This document shows positions 56,779 to 64,000 of a stretch of DNA of 64,000 nt, piece by piece. The position numbers and the translations under genes were made by a program. How positions within the stretch are numbered: the stretch's first letter is position 1; each line of letters starts with the position of its first letter. A model generated the notes under the pieces. That model was given only the letters and a program-made list of their open reading frames with translations, had not been told where the DNA came from and did no database searches. The stretch comes from Kibdelosporangium aridum (GTDB lineage Bacteria > Actinomycetota > Actinomycetes > Mycobacteriales > Pseudonocardiaceae): the NCBI RefSeq assembly GCF_900176515.1, contig NZ_FWXV01000006.1, positions 372,001-436,000 of the forward strand. Direction: 5' to 3'.

Positions 56779-58089
56779 TCAGGAGCGCCGTTCTGTGCTG
56801 GCGGTTTCCGGACTCCGCATCCGGGCTCGTCGCGCCAGGACCGCGATGGAGAACAAGGCGACCACGGCCAGGACGATGATGTACGCCGACACCGACAGCG
56901 ATGTGCCGGTCGACTCCAGCAACAACACCATGATGAACGGCGCCAGCCCGCCGCCGAGGACCGCGCTGATCTGGTAGCCGAGGGACGCGCCGGTGTACCG
57001 CATCTCCGGGGTGAACAGTTCCGCGAACAGCGCGGCTTGTGGGCCGTACATGATGCCGAGGAACGTGCTCGCGATGAAGCTGCTGACGGTGATCGCGAAG
57101 TAGTTGCCAGTGTCTATGAGCAGGAACATCGGTATTGCCCAGATCATTATCCCGACAGCGCCGAACGCGTAGATCCGGATACGTGGCACGCTGTCCGACA
57201 GCTTCGCCGCCAGCGGGATCACTACGAATTGGGTGAGGCTGACCAGGATCGTGATCGTCAGCACGGGACCGCGCGGCAAACCGAGATGCCGCGTGGCGTA
57301 GTCGAGCACCCCGGTGAGCAGGATGTAGAACGTCGCCGTGTTCACCGCGAACGAGCCACCGGCGAGCAACACTGTGCCGAGGTGCTTGCGCAGAACCACG
57401 CGCAACGGTGATCCACGATGCTCCTCGGCGGCCATTTTTGCTTCCGCGGCACGGAATTCCGGCGTCTCCTCGACCCTGGTGTGGATGAACCATGCCAGCA
57501 CCAGCACGAAAATGCCGACCAGGAAAGGAATTCGCCAGCCCCACGACGCGAAGCCGGAACCAGTCACCTGAACCGCGAGCAGGAACACAGTGTTCGCCAG
57601 CACGACTCCAATAGGGACACCGAGCTGGACGAAACTGCTGTAGAGGCCACGCTTTCCTGCCGGCGCGTACTCTGCCGCCAGCAGCATCGCGCCACCCCAC
57701 TGCGCACCGACCGCGAGCCCTTGCAGAACTCGCAGCACCACCAGCAGAATCGGCGCCATGATGCCGATCGACTGGTAGGTCGGCAGCAGGCCGATCGCCG
57801 TCGTCGACAGGCTCATGATCACCAATGCGGCCACCAGCATCGGCTTACGGCCGCGCTTGTCGCCCAACTGACCTGCGATGATCCCGCCGATCGGGCGGGC
57901 GGCGAAGCCGACTGCGAACGTCGCGAACGAAGCGAGCACTCCGGCGACGGGGTCGTCCGCCGGGTAGAACTGGCGGCCGAACACAAGTGCGGCCGCCACG
58001 CCGAAGATGAAGTAGTCGTACCACTCGACTGCCGCCGCCAGGCCTGCCGCTGTCGCGATCCTCCGCCGATGCCGGACGTCGTTGTCCAT
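56779..58089 (-). CDS. MFS transporter, metabolite:H+ symporter (MHS/ProP-ShiA) type
   Basis: The protein has 436 residues and 12 membrane helices. AAGLAAAVEWYDYFIFGVAAALVFGRQFYP is diagnostic for the MHS group, and motif A is GQLGDKRGRKPML. Known members carry proline/betaine, shikimate, citrate or other organic acids. The start is ATG 58089 (a TTG three codons upstream is possible). Its promoter region holds a half-degenerate copy of the CTAAGC-type palindrome, tying it to the neighbouring catabolic genes. Confidence 0.9.
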   Translation of the reverse strand: MDNDVRHRRRIATAAGLAAAVEWYDYFIFGVAAALVFGRQFYPADDPVAGVLASFATFAVGFAARPIGGIIAGQLGDKRGRKPMLVAALVIMSLSTTAIGLLPTYQSIGIMAPILLVVLRVLQGLAVGAQWGGAMLLAAEYAPAGKRGLYSSFVQLGVPIGVVLANTVFLLAVQVTGSGFASWGWRIPFLVGIFVLVLAWFIHTRVEETPEFRAAEAKMAAEEHRGSPLRVVLRKHLGTVLLAGGSFAVNTATFYILLTGVLDYATRHLGLPRGPVLTITILVSLTQFVVIPLAAKLSDSVPRIRIYAFGAVGIMIWAIPMFLLIDTGNYFAITVSSFIASTFLGIMYGPQAALFAELFTPEMRYTGASLGYQISAVLGGGLAPFIMVLLLESTGTSLSVSAYIIVLAVVALFSIAVLARRARMRSPETASTERRS

Positions 58090-58133
58090 GAGCCTCAACC
58101 TCGCTGAAGAAGTAGGGGCTTGCGTCGTCTGAA

Positions 58134-58149
58134 GTTAGCAACCGCTTAG
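58134..58149. promoter_or_regulatory. Degenerate copy of the CTAAGC palindrome upstream of the MHS transporter
   Basis: GTTAGC-AACC-GCTTAG: on the minus strand it reads CTAAGC-GGTT-GCTAAC, one perfect half-site and one diverged half. Its spacer GGTT matches the copies at 60435 and 61253. It lies 45 bp upstream of ATG 58089. Confidence 0.5.
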
Positions 58150-58195
58150 TATGCCGTCAACGGACGCATGCGGAAGTCGTTACAGCACAGACAAG

Positions 58196-58969
58196 TCAGA
58201 GCTCTTCGAGTTTGCGCTGGAGCTTGTTCATCCCGCCGATCCAGCGGTCGTTCTGGGTGGCGCGGGCCGCGTAGTACTCGGCGACCTCCGGGTGCGGCAG
58301 GATCAGGAACGAATCTCCGGCCAGTGCCTTGACCACTGTGTCCACGACCTGCTCCGCGGTGATCGCGGTCGGCCCCATCAGGAACTTGCCGCCCGGACCG
58401 GTTTTCTCCAGCATCTCGGTACGGACCCCTTGCGGGCAAATGGCTTGTACACCGATCCCGCGATGCTTGTACGTCGCCAGCAGCCATTCCGCGAAGGCCA
58501 AGGCGCCGTGCTTGGTGACCGAATAGGACGCTGAGCCAAGGCTGGTGAGCAGCCCCGCCGCGGACACGGTCGCCAGGAAGTGCCCACGGCCACGCTCAAG
58601 CCACGCGGGCAGCAGCGCGCGGGCCGCGCGGACGTGTGCCATCACGTTGATGTCCCACGTGCGCGCCCAGTCTTCCTCCGGTGCGTCCGCCCCGCCCAGC
58701 GGCGCGATTCCGGCGTTGGCGCAGAACATGTCGATCTCGCCGAGCGCCGAACGGGCTGCGTCAACAAGCCGGGCGACGCCTTCCTCGCTCGCCGCGTCCC
58801 CGACGACCGCGGTGGCGCCGAGTTCCGACGCGACTGAGGAAACCGCATCGTCCACATCGGCCAGAACCAGGCGGGCTCCCTCGGCGGAGAACCGGCGGGC
58901 CAGCGCCGCGCCGATGCCGCGGCCCGCGCCGGTGATGACGACGCCGGAGTCCTTCAGTGTGAAGCTCAC
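58196..58969 (-). CDS. Short-chain dehydrogenase/reductase
   Basis: The protein has 257 residues, with GTG 58969 overlapping the upstream SDR stop (GTGA). Rossmann glycines are VVITGAGRGIGAALA, and NADH/NADPH choice follows LADVDD. The catalytic set is N in NAGIAP, S in TVSAAG and Y-x3-K in YSVTKHG. The C-terminus QNDRWIGGMNKLQRKLEEL is a helical tail typical of some acyl-CoA/terpenoid SDRs. It is the second gene of a two-SDR operon that diverges from a tetR gene. Confidence 0.9.
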   Translation of the reverse strand: MSFTLKDSGVVITGAGRGIGAALARRFSAEGARLVLADVDDAVSSVASELGATAVVGDAASEEGVARLVDAARSALGEIDMFCANAGIAPLGGADAPEEDWARTWDINVMAHVRAARALLPAWLERGRGHFLATVSAAGLLTSLGSASYSVTKHGALAFAEWLLATYKHRGIGVQAICPQGVRTEMLEKTGPGGKFLMGPTAITAEQVVDTVVKALAGDSFLILPHPEVAEYYAARATQNDRWIGGMNKLQRKLEEL

Positions 58970-59718
58970 AGGCCACCGCCCAGCGTGATGCCGCCGTCGA
59001 GGGTCAGTGTCTGCCCGGTGATCCAGCTGGCCTCGTCGGACAGCAGGAACGCGACCGCGCTGGCGATGTCGCTCGGCACACCGAGCCGCTTCAGCGGGTA
59101 GAAGTTCGCCACCGCTTCCTCGTTGTCCTGGACCAGTGCCTCGGCGAACTTCGTCTTCACGATCGCGGGCGCGACCGCGTTCACCCGGATGCCCGGGCTC
59201 AGGTCGACGGCCAGTTCCATGGTCAGCCTGATCAGGGCCGCCTTGCTCACGCCGTACATGCCGATACCGGGCGAGGCGCGCAGGCCGGCGATCGACGCCA
59301 CGTTCACGATCGACCCGCCGTGCTCGCCCATCCACGCGTCGCGTGCCTTGCGGGTCCACGCGAGCGGCGCGAGCACGTTCACACCGAGGATCTTGGCCGC
59401 CGCGCCCGCGTCGATGTCCACGATCGGGCCGAACACCGGGTTGATGCCGGTGTTGTTGACCAGCATGTCCACCCGGCCGAAGGCCTCCATCGTCCGGGCG
59501 ATCGCCTCGTCCTGGTGTGCGGCGTCATCCGCCTTGCCGGGTACGAAGATCGCCCGATCCGGCCCGCCGAGCTGGCTGGCGGCCTCTTCGAGCGCCTCCG
59601 GCTTGCGCGCGGTGATGCACACCTTCGCGCCGCGCTCGGTCAGTTCCTTCGCGATGCCGAAGCCGATGCCGCGACTGGCACCGGTGACGATCGCCACCCG
59701 GTCCTTGAACGACGTCAC
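58966..59718 (-). CDS. Short-chain dehydrogenase/reductase (FabG-like)
   Basis: The protein has 250 residues. It reads VAIVTGASRGIGFGIAKEL, NNTGINP (in place of the usual NNAG), S in NVASIAG and Y-x3-K in YGVSKAALI. PSDIASAVAFLLSDEASWITGQTLTLDGG is the standard SDR end. It probably oxidises or reduces a 3-hydroxy group on an acyl-CoA or alicyclic ring. A CTAAGC-N4-GCTTAG operator lies 16 bp upstream of its start, on the divergent side shared with tetR. Confidence 0.92.
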   Translation of the reverse strand: MTSFKDRVAIVTGASRGIGFGIAKELTERGAKVCITARKPEALEEAASQLGGPDRAIFVPGKADDAAHQDEAIARTMEAFGRVDMLVNNTGINPVFGPIVDIDAGAAAKILGVNVLAPLAWTRKARDAWMGEHGGSIVNVASIAGLRASPGIGMYGVSKAALIRLTMELAVDLSPGIRVNAVAPAIVKTKFAEALVQDNEEAVANFYPLKRLGVPSDIASAVAFLLSDEASWITGQTLTLDGGITLGGGL

Positions 59719-59733
59719 GAGTGCCGTCCTTTC

Positions 59734-59749
59734 CTAAGCACGCGCTTAG
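59734..59749. promoter_or_regulatory. Palindromic operator between SDR and tetR genes
   Basis: CTAAGC-ACGC-GCTTAG is a perfect 6-4-6 palindrome between the divergent genes, 16 bp from the SDR start and 21 bp from the tetR start. Confidence 0.75.
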
Positions 59750-59769
59750 CGTGCGACTACTGTTTGGCT

Positions 59770-60384
59770 ATGACGATGTCGCAGCCCGCCGACCTGTGGC
59801 CGGACGTCAAACCGGACGCTGCCCGACGGCTGATGTTCGCCGCGGTCGAATCCTTCGCCAAGGTCGGCTTCCACGCCACCACGACGAGGGACATCGCCAC
59901 TGCCGCCGGGATGAGCCCGGCGGCGTTGTACGTGCACTTCCCGTCCAAGACTGCCCTGCTGTTCGAGATCAGCCGCACCGGCCACGAGCGGGTGCTCACG
60001 CTGGTCCAGGACGTGATCGACCAGGGCGATCCACCCGTTGACCGGATGCGCCTGCTGGTCGAGAGGTTCGTCGAATGGCACGCCAAGCGCCACATCGTGG
60101 CCCGTGTCGTGCAGTACGAGTTGGGGGCGCTGCCCGAGCACGAGTACACGGTCGTGGCGGGCTTGCGGCGCCGGATCGAGCAGGCCGTCCAGTCGTTGAT
60201 CACCGACGGCGTGCGGGCCGGGGTCTTTTCGGTCCCTGACGAGAAGGTTGCCGCGCGAGCCGTGCTGTCACTGGGCATCGACGTGGCGCGGTGGTACAGC
60301 GAGCGGGCGCGCAAAACACCGAGGGCGCTCGGGCGTGAGTACGCCACCCTCGTGCTGCGCATGCTGGGTTCCTCCGCGGAGTAA
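59770..60384 (+). CDS. TetR-family repressor (first of two)
   Basis: The protein has 204 residues from ATG 59770. The HTH is RLMFAAVESFAKVGFHATTTRDIATAAGMSPAALYVHFPSKTALLFEI, which is canonical for TetR. The ligand domain follows. It diverges from the SDR operon, with a single palindromic site in the shared promoter, so it probably represses that operon and itself. An acyl-CoA-type effector is suggested by the neighbours. Confidence 0.93.
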   Translation: MTMSQPADLWPDVKPDAARRLMFAAVESFAKVGFHATTTRDIATAAGMSPAALYVHFPSKTALLFEISRTGHERVLTLVQDVIDQGDPPVDRMRLLVERFVEWHAKRHIVARVVQYELGALPEHEYTVVAGLRRRIEQAVQSLITDGVRAGVFSVPDEKVAARAVLSLGIDVARWYSERARKTPRALGREYATLVLRMLGSSAE

Positions 60385-60406
60385 GCAGTTCTCGTTGTCC
60401 AGTAGA

Positions 60407-60422
60407 CATACCAGCTGGTATG
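60407..60422. promoter_or_regulatory. CATACC palindrome, copy 1
   Basis: CATACC-AGCT-GGTATG is a perfect palindrome. It lies between the convergent ends of tetR (60384) and the enoyl-CoA hydratase gene (60461), where no promoter is expected. A CTAAGC site follows 12 bp later. Confidence 0.7.
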
Positions 60423-60434
60423 CGAATCTGCATA

Positions 60435-60450
60435 CTAAGCGGTTGCTTAG
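60435..60450. promoter_or_regulatory. CTAAGC palindrome, copy in the convergent gap
   Basis: CTAAGC-GGTT-GCTTAG is identical, including spacer, to the copy at 61253-61268. It lies 10 bp past the stop of the hydratase gene. Confidence 0.75.
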
Positions 60451-60460
60451 CTCACACCAT

Positions 60461-61243
60461 TCACGAGGGGTATGGCGGGAACTCCGGCGGGCGCCGCTCC
60501 AGCCAGCTCACCACGCCTTCTTTGGCCTCCGGGTGCAGGAACGACTCGGCCATCAGCTCGGCCGCCCGATCACCCGACTCGGCCAGCGGGATCGCCGCCT
60601 CGTCGAGGATCTGCCGCTTCATCACGGCCATGGACCGCGGGGCGCTGTAGGTGGCCAGCTCGGACGCGTACGCCTTGGTCGCGGCGAGCAACTCCTCCGC
60701 CGGGTAAACCTCCTGGACCAGGCCGTATGACAACGCGTCCTCGGCGACGAACGTCCGGCCGGACAGCAGCAGGTCCATCGCGCGGCCCCGGCCGACCAGG
60801 TCGGGCAGCAGCTGGGCGATCCCGTACTCGGCGATCAGGCCGCGCCGCGCGAACGCGGTGGTGAACTTCGCCCCGGCCGCTGCGAACCGGACGTCGGCCG
60901 TGCAGGCGATGACGAAGCCGAGACCGGCACAGCCGCCGTTGATCGCGGCGATCACGGGCTTGCCGACGAAAGCCGCCGACAGCACGTACTCGACCTGGAA
61001 GTCGATGCCGCCTTCGGGGATGTCGTCGGCGAGGACGTCGAGGTCAGCGCCGGGGCAGAAGGAGTTGCCCGCGCCGGTGACAACGATGGCACGCACGCCC
61101 GTGTCGGCTTCCAGTATCCGCAGGACCTCGCCGTACCGGCGTTCCATCGCCAGGTTCATCGCGTTGTTGCGGTCCGGCCGGTCGAACGTCACCGTCGCCA
61201 CGCCGGAGTCCACCGAGTAGCGCACGCCGTCCTCGAGTGTCAT
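60461..61243 (-). CDS. Enoyl-CoA hydratase/isomerase (crotonase) family protein
   Basis: The protein has 260 residues with the crotonase fold: VATVTFDRPDRNNAMNLAM, then the oxyanion loop PGADLDVLADDI, and VIAAINGGCAGLGFVIACTADVRFAAAGAKFTTAFARRGLIAEYG. The positions of the two classic hydratase glutamates appear to be V (in GLGFVIA) and A (in TTAFARR). A glutamate does follow in GLIAEYG, as in many actinobacterial crotonases. A role other than straight hydration of 2-enoyl-CoA, for example isomerase or ring cleavage, is possible. Both flanks carry the same pair of palindromes. Confidence 0.88.
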   Translation of the reverse strand: MTLEDGVRYSVDSGVATVTFDRPDRNNAMNLAMERRYGEVLRILEADTGVRAIVVTGAGNSFCPGADLDVLADDIPEGGIDFQVEYVLSAAFVGKPVIAAINGGCAGLGFVIACTADVRFAAAGAKFTTAFARRGLIAEYGIAQLLPDLVGRGRAMDLLLSGRTFVAEDALSYGLVQEVYPAEELLAATKAYASELATYSAPRSMAVMKRQILDEAAIPLAESGDRAAELMAESFLHPEAKEGVVSWLERRPPEFPPYPS

Positions 61244-61252
61244 GTCGACATG

Positions 61253-61268
61253 CTAAGCGGTTGCTTAG
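61253..61268. promoter_or_regulatory. CTAAGC palindrome upstream of the hydratase gene
   Basis: CTAAGC-GGTT-GCTTAG lies 9 bp upstream of the hydratase start, in the divergent gap before the second tetR gene. Confidence 0.75.
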
Positions 61269-61291
61269 GTCACGTCGAGGTTTGACGAGGA

Positions 61292-61307
61292 CATACCGAG
61301 CGGTATG
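61292..61307. promoter_or_regulatory. CATACC palindrome upstream of second tetR
   Basis: CATACC-GAGC-GGTATG is perfect in the half-sites and differs from copy 1 only in the spacer. It lies 34 bp upstream of ATG 61342. Confidence 0.75.
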
Positions 61308-61341
61308 GTTGCCGTGTCTGGGAATACGGAGGTAGCCGACG

Positions 61342-61932
61342 ATGGCACGCAGGCCAGTCAACACCGCGTCCGGAGTGGACGACCGGTTGCTTGCCGAGGC
61401 CACGAAGCTGTTCGCCAAGCAGGGCTTCGACCGCACGTCGGTCCAGGAGATCGTCGAGGCCGCAGGCGTCACCAAGGGCGCGATGTACCACTACTTCGGC
61501 TCGAAGGACGACCTGCTGCACGAGATCTACGGCCGGGTGCTGCGCGAGCAGACCTGCCGGCTGGAGAAGTTCGCGGCCAGCGAGGCACCGGCGGCCGAGC
61601 GGGTCAGGGGCGCTGCGGCCGACGTCGTCGTCACCACCATCGAGAACCTGGACGATTTCAAGATCTTCTCGCAGTCCATGCACCACCTCAGCCCGGCCAA
61701 GCAACGGGCCGTGCGGGCCGAGCGCCGCAAGTACCACGAGCGGTTCCGTTCCCTGGTCGAGGAAGGCCAGCGCGCGGGCGATTTCCGTGACGACGTGCCC
61801 GCTGACCTGGTCGTGGACTACTTCTTTGGCTCCGTGCACCACCTCGGCGTCTGGTACCGGCGCAACGGCAGGCTTTCGCCGGCCCAGATCGCCGATCACT
61901 ACGCAGATCTGCTGCTCACCTCGCTGCGCTAA
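61342..61932 (+). CDS. TetR-family repressor (second of two)
   Basis: The protein has 196 residues. GGAGG lies 10 bp before ATG 61342. The HTH is RLLAEATKLFAKQGFDRTSVQEIVEAAGVTKGAMYHYFGSKDDLLHEI. The C-domain (VVDYFFGSVHHLGVWYRRNG) resembles the KstR2/AcrR-like group. It heads the co-directional SDR-MaoC-APH operon. One site upstream of it is of the CATACC type and one of the CTAAGC type; it probably binds one of them and the first TetR the other. Confidence 0.93.
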   Translation: MARRPVNTASGVDDRLLAEATKLFAKQGFDRTSVQEIVEAAGVTKGAMYHYFGSKDDLLHEIYGRVLREQTCRLEKFAASEAPAAERVRGAAADVVVTTIENLDDFKIFSQSMHHLSPAKQRAVRAERRKYHERFRSLVEEGQRAGDFRDDVPADLVVDYFFGSVHHLGVWYRRNGRLSPAQIADHYADLLLTSLR

Positions 61933-61952
61933 CACCTTCTGGAGGAGACTCA

Positions 61953-62702
61953 ATGACCAAGGTCGCGATCGTCACCGGTGCCGCGCGCGGCATCGGTGCG
62001 GCCGTCGCACGCAGGCTGGTAGCCGACGGGTTCGCCGTCGCGTTGCTCGACCTCGACGAGGCAGGCGTCAAGGAAGGCGCCGCCGCGATCACGGCCGAGG
62101 GTGGCAAGGCGATCGGCCTTGGCGTCGACGTCAGTGACACCGAGCAGGTGGAGGCGTGCGTCACCCGGATCGCCGACGAGCTCGGCCCGCCGGTCGTGCT
62201 GGTCAACAACGCCGGGATCACCAGGGACAACCTGCTGTTCAAGATGACCGACCAAGACTGGGACTCGGTGATCGGCGTCCACCTGCGTGGCTCGTTCGTG
62301 ATGAGCCGCGCGGCGCAGAAGTACATGACCGAGGCCAAGTGGGGCCGGATCGTCAACCTGTCCAGCACGTCCGCGCTGGGCAACCGCGGCCAGGCCAACT
62401 ACTCCGCGGCCAAGGCGGGCCTGCAGGGCTTCACCAAGACGCTGGCGATCGAACTGGGCAAGTTCGGTGTCACGGTCAACGCGATCGCGCCGGGCTTCAT
62501 CGCCACCGACATGACCGCGGCGACCGCCGAGCGGCTCGGGATCTCCTTCGAGGACATGAAGGCGGGCGCGGCGTCGCAGATCCCGGTCGGCCGGGTCGGC
62601 GAGCCGGAGGACATCGCGCACCTGGTGTCTTACTTCGTCAGCGAGGGCGCCGGGTTCGTGTCGGGACAGGTCGTGTACGCGGCCGGCGGGCCACAGGACT
62701 GA
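61953..62702 (+). CDS. Short-chain dehydrogenase, FabG-like 3-oxoacyl reductase type
   Basis: The protein has 249 residues. GGAGGAG lies just before ATG 61953. It has VAIVTGAARGIGAAVA, NNAGITRD (typical of FabG), NLSSTSALGNRGQANYSAAKAGLQGF with the S and Y-x3-K set, and EPEDIAHLVSYFVSEGAGFVSGQVVYAAGG. It probably acts on 3-hydroxy/3-oxoacyl thioesters. It lies 20 bp after tetR and 9 bp before the MaoC gene. Confidence 0.93.
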   Translation: MTKVAIVTGAARGIGAAVARRLVADGFAVALLDLDEAGVKEGAAAITAEGGKAIGLGVDVSDTEQVEACVTRIADELGPPVVLVNNAGITRDNLLFKMTDQDWDSVIGVHLRGSFVMSRAAQKYMTEAKWGRIVNLSSTSALGNRGQANYSAAKAGLQGFTKTLAIELGKFGVTVNAIAPGFIATDMTAATAERLGISFEDMKAGAASQIPVGRVGEPEDIAHLVSYFVSEGAGFVSGQVVYAAGGPQD

Positions 62703-62711
62703 GGAGGGCAC

Positions 62712-63164
62712 ATGCGGGTTTTCAAGGACGTCGACGAGCTCGCGGCCGCGAAGGGCGAGGTGCTCGGCACGGGTGAGTGGCGCGAGATCACCCAGGAGGC
62801 CGTGAACATGTTCGCCGACGCGACCGGCGACCACCAGTGGATCCACGTGGACGTGGAGAAGGCGAAAGCCGGTCCGTTCGGTGGCCCGATCGCGCACGGC
62901 TACATGACGCTGTCGCTGATCCCGGTGCTGGTCAGGGACATCTACAAGATCGAGAACGTGGCCATGGTGGTGAACTACGGCTCCAACAAGGTCCGGTTCC
63001 CCTCGCCGGTCCGGGTCGGCGCCAGGGTGCGTGCCACGTCGGAACTGCTGGACATCACGGACGTCCAGGGTGGCAAGCAGGCCGTCACCAAGGTCACCGT
63101 CGAGATCGAGGGCAGCGACAAGCCCGCGTGCGTCGCCGAGATCGTCAGCAGGATCGTTTCATGA
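62712..63164 (+). CDS. MaoC-type (R)-specific enoyl-CoA hydratase
   Basis: The protein has 150 residues, the length of single hot-dog MaoC hydratases. The catalytic D/H pair is in FADATGDHQWIHVD, followed by GPFGGPIAHGYMTLSLIP and NYGSNKVRFPSPVRVGARVRA. It hydrates an enoyl-CoA, probably feeding the adjacent FabG-like enzyme. ATG 62712 has GAGGAGGG directly upstream. Confidence 0.93.
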   Translation: MRVFKDVDELAAAKGEVLGTGEWREITQEAVNMFADATGDHQWIHVDVEKAKAGPFGGPIAHGYMTLSLIPVLVRDIYKIENVAMVVNYGSNKVRFPSPVRVGARVRATSELLDITDVQGGKQAVTKVTVEIEGSDKPACVAEIVSRIVS

Positions 63165-64000
63165 GCCTCCCGGGACTGGATCTTGAGAAGCTGCGCGGCA
63201 AGCTGGGTGACGGGCCGCTGTCGGCGGAGCTCGTCGAAGGCGGCCGTTCGAATCTGACCTATGTGGTCACTGACGGCACTCAGAAATGGGTGGTCCGAAG
63301 GCCTCCGCTCGGGCATGTGCTGCCGACCGCGCATGACATGGCGCGTGAGTACCGTGTGATCACGGCGTTGAAGGACACCAAGGTTCCGGTGCCGGGTACG
63401 TTGTTCCTTTGCCAGGACACCGAAGTGCTCGGTGCGCCCTTCTATGTCATGGAGTTCATGCCCGGGGTTCCGTATCGCAGCAGGGAAGAACTCGGCAAGC
63501 TCGGTCCGGAAAGGACACGGGTGATCGCGCTGAACCTGATCGACACCCTGGCCGACTTGCACGCCGTGGATCCCGTATCGGTAGGGCTCGGTGACTTCGG
63601 ACGCCCGGAGGGGTACCTGGAGCGTCAGCTTCGCCGGTGGGGCAAGCAGCTGGACGCGTCGCGCAGCCGTGACCTGCCTGGCATCGACCGGTTGCACGAT
63701 CGCCTGGCTGAACGGCTGCCTTCGTCAACCGAGGCGACGATCCTGCACGGTGACTACCGGCTGGACAACACGCTGGTGCTCGACGACAAGATCACCGCTG
63801 TGCTCGACTGGGAAATGTCCACTTTGGGCGACCCGCTCGCCGATCTCGGCCTCACGGTCGCGTACGCCACCCGCGAGGCGCCGGACGACTCGGTGATCGC
63901 GAACGTCAGCGGCGCGCCCGGCTACCCGAGCACGGACGAGGTGATCGACCACTACGCCAAGCGCACCGGCCGCGATGTGTCCAACTTGGACTGGTACATC
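63161..64000 (+). CDS. APH-fold phosphotransferase family protein (acyl-CoA dehydrogenase-associated), partial
   Basis: The gene starts at ATG 63161, overlapping the MaoC stop (ATGA), and runs off the window after 280 codons. ELVEGGRSNLTYVVTDG is the nucleotide-binding loop, HGDYRLDNTLV is the Brenner-type catalytic motif (Asp) and VLDWEMSTLGDPLADLG is the metal-binding D. This is the aminoglycoside-phosphotransferase-like domain that in many actinobacteria and animals precedes or pairs with acyl-CoA dehydrogenases (ACAD10/11-like). It may phosphorylate a hydroxyacyl substrate during its catabolism. Confidence 0.88.
   Translation, partial: MSLPGLDLEKLRGKLGDGPLSAELVEGGRSNLTYVVTDGTQKWVVRRPPLGHVLPTAHDMAREYRVITALKDTKVPVPGTLFLCQDTEVLGAPFYVMEFMPGVPYRSREELGKLGPERTRVIALNLIDTLADLHAVDPVSVGLGDFGRPEGYLERQLRRWGKQLDASRSRDLPGIDRLHDRLAERLPSSTEATILHGDYRLDNTLVLDDKITAVLDWEMSTLGDPLADLGLTVAYATREAPDDSVIANVSGAPGYPSTDEVIDHYAKRTGRDVSNLDWYI

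Follow-up and report, generated by a model that had tools for sequence, protein, structure and literature searches.

A conserved operator-like element behind the stop codon of a TetR-family repressor gene in Pseudonocardiaceae

Results

Genes and operator-like sites at the locus

The window analyzed here, a stretch of 64,000 nucleotides from Kibdelosporangium aridum (contig NZ_FWXV01000006.1, positions 372,001 to 436,000), carries genes in the order MFS(-), SDRa(-), SDRb(-), TetR1(+), hydratase(-), TetR2(+), SDRc(+), MaoC(+), APH-domain(+) and acyl-CoA dehydrogenase(+). TetR1 and TetR2 each match PF00440 and PF17932 above the cut-off, and entry 3vpr, which we take to be PfmR/TTHB023, is the second-best PDB match of both. 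Downstream of TetR2 (window 61953-64000; L019 6151-7362) lie genes for SDR, MaoC, APH-domain and acyl-CoA dehydrogenase proteins; this group presumably resembles hydroxyacyl-CoA breakdown with ACAD10/11-like parts. The features that concern us are the following.

56779..58089, minus strand: MFS, metabolite/H+ symporter-like transporter; adjoins the TetR1 3' end in some Amycolatopsis
58132..58160, minus strand: proposed MFS promoter TTGACG-17-TAACTT with operator variant CTAAGCGGTTGCTAAC (58149-58134); same layout in Amycolatopsis
58196..58969, minus strand: SDRa, short-chain dehydrogenase, other end of the inverted block (see below)
58966..59718, minus strand: SDRb, short-chain dehydrogenase, inverted-block gene divergent from TetR1
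59734..59749, unstranded: third CTAAGC palindrome, in the SDRb/TetR1 divergent promoter; perfect in 7/8 genus genomes, one mismatch in G005
59758-59763: TetR1 -10 TACTGT, read by eye
59770..60384, plus strand: TetR1, TetR family repressor (TetR_N, TetR_C_24)
60407..60422, unstranded: left CATACC-N4-GGTATG palindrome (centre AGCT), putative TetR2 operator; perfect in the window and G004
60431..60456, plus strand: conserved TetR1 3' element CATACTAAGCGGTTGCTTAGCTCACA, containing the left CTAAGC palindrome 60435-60450 (centre GGTT); conserved among congeners and in the family
60461..61243, minus strand: enoyl-CoA hydratase/isomerase (ECH_1)
61250..61278, minus strand: proposed hydratase promoter, read from the sequence: -35 TCGACG (61278-61273), 17 bp, -10 TAGCAT (61255-61250), 6 bp to ATG
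61253..61268, unstranded: right CTAAGC palindrome (centre GGTT), putative TetR1 operator within the hydratase promoter; perfect in 8/8 genus genomes
61282..61309, plus strand: TetR2 promoter TTGACG-16-TATGGT
61292..61307, unstranded: right CATACC palindrome (centre GAGC), putative TetR2 operator overlapping the TetR2 -10; perfect in 7/8 genus genomes, one mismatch in G006
61342..61932, plus strand: TetR2, TetR family repressor (TetR_N, TetR_C_24)

Two types of palindrome, CATACC-N4-GGTATG and CTAAGC-N4-GCTTAG, flank the hydratase gene as pairs in opposite order. A preliminary description had noted this mirrored arrangement, and we found both types perfect at both places, the two CTAAGC copies being identical. 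Its placing of the pairs also agrees with the coordinates: the left pair sits in the 76 bp that separate the stops of the convergent TetR1 (+) and hydratase (-) genes, and the right pair in the divergent hydratase/TetR2 promoter region, where its CTAAGC site, judged by eye, occupies the hydratase promoter's spacer. It had overlooked the third perfect CTAAGC site at 59734-59749 as well as a copy with two mismatches at 58134-58149, in the MFS promoter.

The 12.27-Mb genome contains just two perfect CATACC palindromes, those at 60407 and 61292, and three perfect CTAAGC palindromes. All five fall inside 1.6 kb; the chance expectation is about 0.37 per perfect palindrome type (independent bases, window's G+C). 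CTAAGC has no one-mismatch copies in the genome (backwards control, 19), while CATACC sites at two mismatches or fewer number 181 in total, compared with 132 for the backwards control. Each regulator has a palindromic operator-like site in its adjacent divergent promoter, TetR1 at 59734-59749 and TetR2 at 61292-61307. From this adjacency and from co-conservation we infer that the CTAAGC sites are operators of TetR1 and the CATACC sites operators of TetR2.

A promoter scan found a single promoter-like site in 58000-61500, that of TetR2; the scan is strict and also misses the hydratase and MFS promoters proposed above. The hydratase promoter layout resembles that upstream of the hydratase gene of G022. 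Because its -10 stands only 6 bp before the ATG (61243-61255), the hydratase transcript is probably leaderless. TetR1 looks leaderless too, with a -10-like hexamer six bases ahead of its ATG (59758-59770). Rfam gave no match in 58000-62000.

The left pair is degenerate in congeners, with a conserved core

In an exact-pattern search of 390 family genomes, the right pair (both sites no more than 31 bp apart) was found in seven, all belonging to the window's genus of eight; G006, the eighth, has one mismatch in its right CATACC site. The same kind of search returned the left pair from the window's genome alone. We considered and rejected the idea that the left pair is unique to this genome: alignment shows degenerate forms in the other six syntenic congeners, and the exact-pattern result is therefore misleading. 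The left CTAAGC copy is off by one or two bases in these six, by one in the nearest relative, G004. The left CATACC site has one mismatch in G007; the remaining four congeners have a longer TACC-type form, with TACC-N4-GGTA in three and a near match in one. The longer left CATACC-type site of relatives is CATACCNACCRGTCGGTAT.

Across seven congeners, 20 of the 22 core columns of the left CTAAGC element are invariant, versus 17 of 86 four-fold sites in TetR1 (Fisher p 8e-10, columns treated as independent). Flanking the core, invariant columns number 13/40 before it, a stretch that includes the CATACC site, and 5/38 after it. G007 alone among the seven aligned genomes has a long inverted repeat (L065 6781-6848), placed between the 3' end of the hydratase gene and the left pair, that looks like a terminator acting in both directions.

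Gene order implies inversion of a neighboring block, not of the hydratase gene

SDRa, SDRb, TetR1, hydratase and TetR2 follow one another as in the window in 7/8 genomes of the genus. Actinocrispum (G005/L076) has the order TetR2(-), hydratase(+), SDRa(-), SDRb(-), TetR1(+), with the SDRa-SDRb-TetR1 block reversed relative to the window. TetR2 lies on Actinocrispum's side of TetR1 in the 12 other outgroup loci where it is seen (L066, L067, L069, L071, L077-L079, L083, L088, L090, L093 and L099), and two Streptomyces loci (L145, L149) show a third arrangement, with TetR2 beyond the TetR1 3' end. In a TetR1 tree, the seven window-like genomes form one clade (97/90), Actinocrispum is its sister (98/95), and Amycolatopsis anabasis comes next (81/82). 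One block inversion on the branch to the seven explains both the gene orders and the tree, which together imply that the SDRa-SDRb-TetR1 block (~2.2 kb) was inverted once on that branch. Such an inversion would bring the TetR1 3' flank and its CATACC site against the hydratase 3' end. The hydratase promoter would already have had both site types, hence the mirrored look. By eye, Actinocrispum also has two extra genes between hydratase and SDRa (L063 6880-8140), for an HxlR-type regulator and an NmrA-type oxidoreductase.

The preliminary description had instead supposed that the hydratase gene was inserted or inverted together with its promoter, or that the identical 16-bp CTAAGC copies flanking it had served as recombination points. 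Comparing gene order in relatives does imply an inversion next to the left pair, but of the neighboring block: the divergent hydratase/TetR2 pair keeps its relative orientation in 8/8 genus genomes and in G022, from another genus, and nothing in the gene order suggests that the hydratase gene itself was turned. The two CTAAGC copies, whose flanks partly match (CAT.CTAAGCGGTTGCTTAG.TCAC), have the same orientation and hence are not an inverted repeat. Moreover, the left copy, variable in the six congeners as described above, is perfect in 1 of the 38 loci discussed below. We regard this account as very improbable and set aside the copies as recombination points.

An element kept behind TetR1 across the family

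We compared TetR1 loci from the best 80 of 582 relatives, six further genomes and the window, a top slice and not a census. The 89 flanks include two duplicates (G047 = L078 and G024 = L079), and counts are made on 87. In 38 of 40 Pseudonocardiaceae loci where TetR1 is divergent from SDRb (the 40 include L083, a metagenome bin assigned no further than Actinomycetes, which we counted with Pseudonocardiaceae), an element of the form CATACTAAGC-N4-(weaker half) lies 9-111 bp past the TetR1 stop, on the TetR1 strand. All 38 elements begin beyond the stop codon, downstream of TetR1's own promoter on the path of its transcript. The element is missing from two of the SDRb-divergent loci: L097, where the CATACC-type site alone remains, and L119. 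By these alignments, the element kept behind the TetR1 stop is represented in the window by the left CTAAGC site. This site is also older than the inversion, judging from its presence after TetR1 in Actinocrispum and six further genera (g10, g16, g21, g25, g27 and g41).

The element tracks this gene arrangement. Allowing two mismatches in the 250 bp after the stop, CATACTAAGCGNNNG was found in the 38 loci just described, in none of 25 Pseudonocardiaceae TetR1 loci lacking SDRb and in none of 22 Streptomycetaceae loci. On the opposite strand of the 89 flanks there was no exact match, the best being one at two mismatches; the control stretch 250-500 bp after the stop gave no exact match and two at two mismatches (one flank missing). 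Zero-mismatch matches to CATACTAAGCNNNNGNTNA in 11 genomes all fall at the TetR1 locus, the MFS and hydratase promoters there included. A count that presupposes no pattern agrees: of all 10-mers in the 250 bp that follow TetR1, CATACTAAGC occurs in the most loci (35/40), against at most 29 loci for any 10-mer in the final 250 coding bp and at most 11 and 9 in the two 250-bp stretches beyond this flank. Beyond the seven, in the remaining 31 loci, conservation reaches 90% at 13 of 22 core columns and at 0 of 78 flanking columns. The two half-sites differ: the weaker one takes 10 different forms in the 38 loci, with a perfect GCTTAG in the window only (1/38), and the CATACTAAGC half is far more constant.

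The gene after TetR1 changes from locus to locus. It is codirectional in 24 loci (MFS in 8, cut short in L091; deaminase in 10; epoxide hydrolase in 4; DUF1203 in 1; ABC substrate-binding protein in 1) and convergent in 14 (hydratase in 7, TetR in 3, DeoR in 2, SSF in 1, acyl-CoA dehydrogenase in 1). Next genes were chosen by a reading-frame rule; one representative of each type other than MFS and hydratase was checked in Pfam and the rest by eye. Given these differing neighbors, we conclude that the element is independent of the identity or direction of the next gene.

In some Amycolatopsis the element is part of an MFS promoter

Relatives in which the left pair is an active promoter of a conserved gene would, according to the preliminary description, speak against its reading. 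Some Amycolatopsis go part of the way, as their corresponding pair is located in the MFS promoter. In the seven loci of the Amycolatopsis orientalis group and in A. anabasis (eight loci, one with its MFS gene cut short), the element serves as operator in an MFS promoter of the form TTGACC-17-TAACTT (TAATTT in L087), accompanied by an upstream CATACC-type site. In Amycolatopsis thailandensis (L091 3290-3400), the MFS frame stops early after an intact promoter.

The Kibdelosporangium group carries both copies of the element, one in the MFS promoter and one at the TetR1 3' end. In five of its seven genomes the MFS gene, whose present place is behind SDRa, retains a promoter copy of its own (window 58160-58132) without a CATACC site, and the copy behind TetR1 has both operators without a -35 or -10. 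No MFS gene was found in the stretch fetched for G003 and G006. In G002 (L060 8960-10300) the MFS gene is broken by frameshifts, with no Ns there; its promoter operator has drifted and the TetR1 3' core is kept.

Our first idea, that the left pair is an MFS promoter orphaned by the inversion, could be only partly kept, because five of the seven inverted genomes retain an MFS promoter copy and Actinocrispum, without the inversion, has the promoterless form of the pair. Around the element, a -35 and -10 are present in the 8 MFS-type loci; by eye there is no -35 in the 7 Kibdelosporangium-group loci or in the 23 others. Three of these 23, all with a codirectional next gene (L090, L100, G033), show TAACCT at the place taken by TAACTT in the MFS promoters.

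Perhaps the pair is simply a remnant of an ancestral MFS control region, now without a role? Its identity with the MFS promoter in some Amycolatopsis, and the disappearance of -35 and -10 from the window, would suit that idea. However, conservation of the element exceeds that of four-fold sites, and it is kept in lineages with no MFS gene at this place, persisting in G003, G005 and G006, where none was found in the 15-16 kb fetched. The left element is, moreover, more palindromic in the window than in relatives. We consider a functionless remnant improbable.

What could a promoterless operator do?

The preliminary description had also suggested a transcript starting at the left pair. The strict scan recognized no -35/-10 there, although the minus strand does hold a conserved -10-like TAGTAT. 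Since no promoter is recognizable at the left pair, a repressor bound there would most likely act as a roadblock or insulator. The comparison shows conservation of the element in sequence, position and orientation; binding and function we infer. With slightly better than even confidence, we read the left CTAAGC site as an operator that belongs to TetR1 and lacks a promoter; set behind the gene of its own repressor, it would most likely work as a roadblock or insulator under that repressor's control. Bound repressor would halt polymerase exiting TetR1 and spare the neighbor, in the window from antisense transcription into hydratase; polymerase exiting the hydratase gene would likewise be kept out of TetR1. 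Arrival of inducer would release the block. In some Amycolatopsis the same element doubles as the MFS promoter's operator.

The surrounding sequence bears on this reading in several ways. No terminator-like hairpin was found in 60385-60460. A weak one does lie on the hydratase strand at 60332-60319, inside TetR1 (the stretch contains three hairpins of this kind, shuffles 1.3), and the hydratase transcript may therefore not need a roadblock. The 24 of 38 loci with a codirectional next gene leave room for a promoter-linked role there. The asymmetry of the half-sites counts against a roadblock, as a plain symmetric one does not predict it.

Unequal half-sites, together with the minus-strand TAGTAT, keep an antisense promoter as the main rival: an antisense transcript leading back across the TetR1 gene would be under TetR1 repression, which would make a feedback switch. 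Actinobacterial -10 elements follow TANNNT, which TAGTAT fits well. It lies within GCTTAGTATG, the minus-strand reading of the constant half. That half, GCTTAGTAT, is kept in 35/40 loci (as ATACTAAGC) while the other drifts, and GCTTAGTATG occupies the -10 position in four Amycolatopsis hydratase promoters (L081, L084, L087, L105). However, by eye the minus strand of the aligned groups lacks a -35 at 16-18 bp, the window scan (strict as it is) finds no such promoter, and the same half is also constant in the MFS promoters, where it falls in the spacer. We judge an antisense promoter rather unlikely, while taking it seriously.

Might TetR1 instead form repression loops between its sites at 59734, 60435 and 61253, some 700 and 820 bp apart? 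Looping would require at least two TetR dimers. The presence of three perfect sites within 1.55 kb would allow for it, as would a distance between the 5' and 3' sites that stays at 659-801 bp in the 38 loci; yet these distances showed no phase preference at any of five periods of 10.0-11.0 bp. We give looping little credence.

Discussion

The roadblock or insulator that we favor for the TetR1 element has partial counterparts in known systems. In the E. coli lac operon, operator O3 stands at the downstream end of the gene for its own repressor, LacI, and bound repressor can stop polymerase (PMC3711431). By analogy, the TetR1 element may be likened to O3 as an operator at its own gene's downstream end. 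The block at O3 yields a truncated lacI transcript and less LacI, in contrast to the TetR1 element, which stands 9-111 bp past the stop. Lying beyond the stop codon, it would leave a blocked transcript with the whole reading frame.

Controller proteins offer another comparison; C.Kpn2I, which is not known to belong to the TetR family, is one. It roadblocks transcription of its own gene, although its site, unlike the TetR1 element, is inside the coding region (PMC6237814). RolR of Corynebacterium glutamicum is, like TetR1, an actinobacterial TetR-family protein, and is said to repress by roadblock; its operator, however, lies within 100 bp after start sites, and the TetR1 element behind its own gene (PMC9210681).

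As for the CATACC sites, the TetR-family regulator of lipid genes PfmR/TTHB023 from Thermus thermophilus has a TACCGACCGNTNGGTN-type site (PMC7022988), and this resembles the longer left CATACC-type site of relatives given above. The CATACC-N4-GGTATG of the window is shorter than the PfmR consensus and matches only in part. Outside the genus, a 20-bp PfmR-type version upstream of TetR2 beats all 100 shuffles in 8/22 loci. Among the literature matches listed, judged by title and the start of the abstract, we found no description of a post-stop TetR operator, and the matches listed for the letters of the CTAAGC site look unrelated by title.

We suggest, tentatively and at somewhat less than even confidence, that this is a TetR repressor carrying family-wide a promoterless post-stop operator, which would be either an inducer-controlled terminator or insulator or a repressed antisense start. 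The element would move with its gene through inversions and changes of neighbor, and may become a neighbor's promoter-operator.

Operators are usually sought upstream of genes; here a conserved one stands behind the repressor gene in 38/40 loci. Such a post-stop operator would easily be taken for a promoter out of place or for the scar of a rearrangement, and the locus also shows how control sites can reach a new neighbor through a small inversion. Should the element prove to be a controlled terminator, operators placed past the stop codon may insulate repressor genes in a way so far overlooked.
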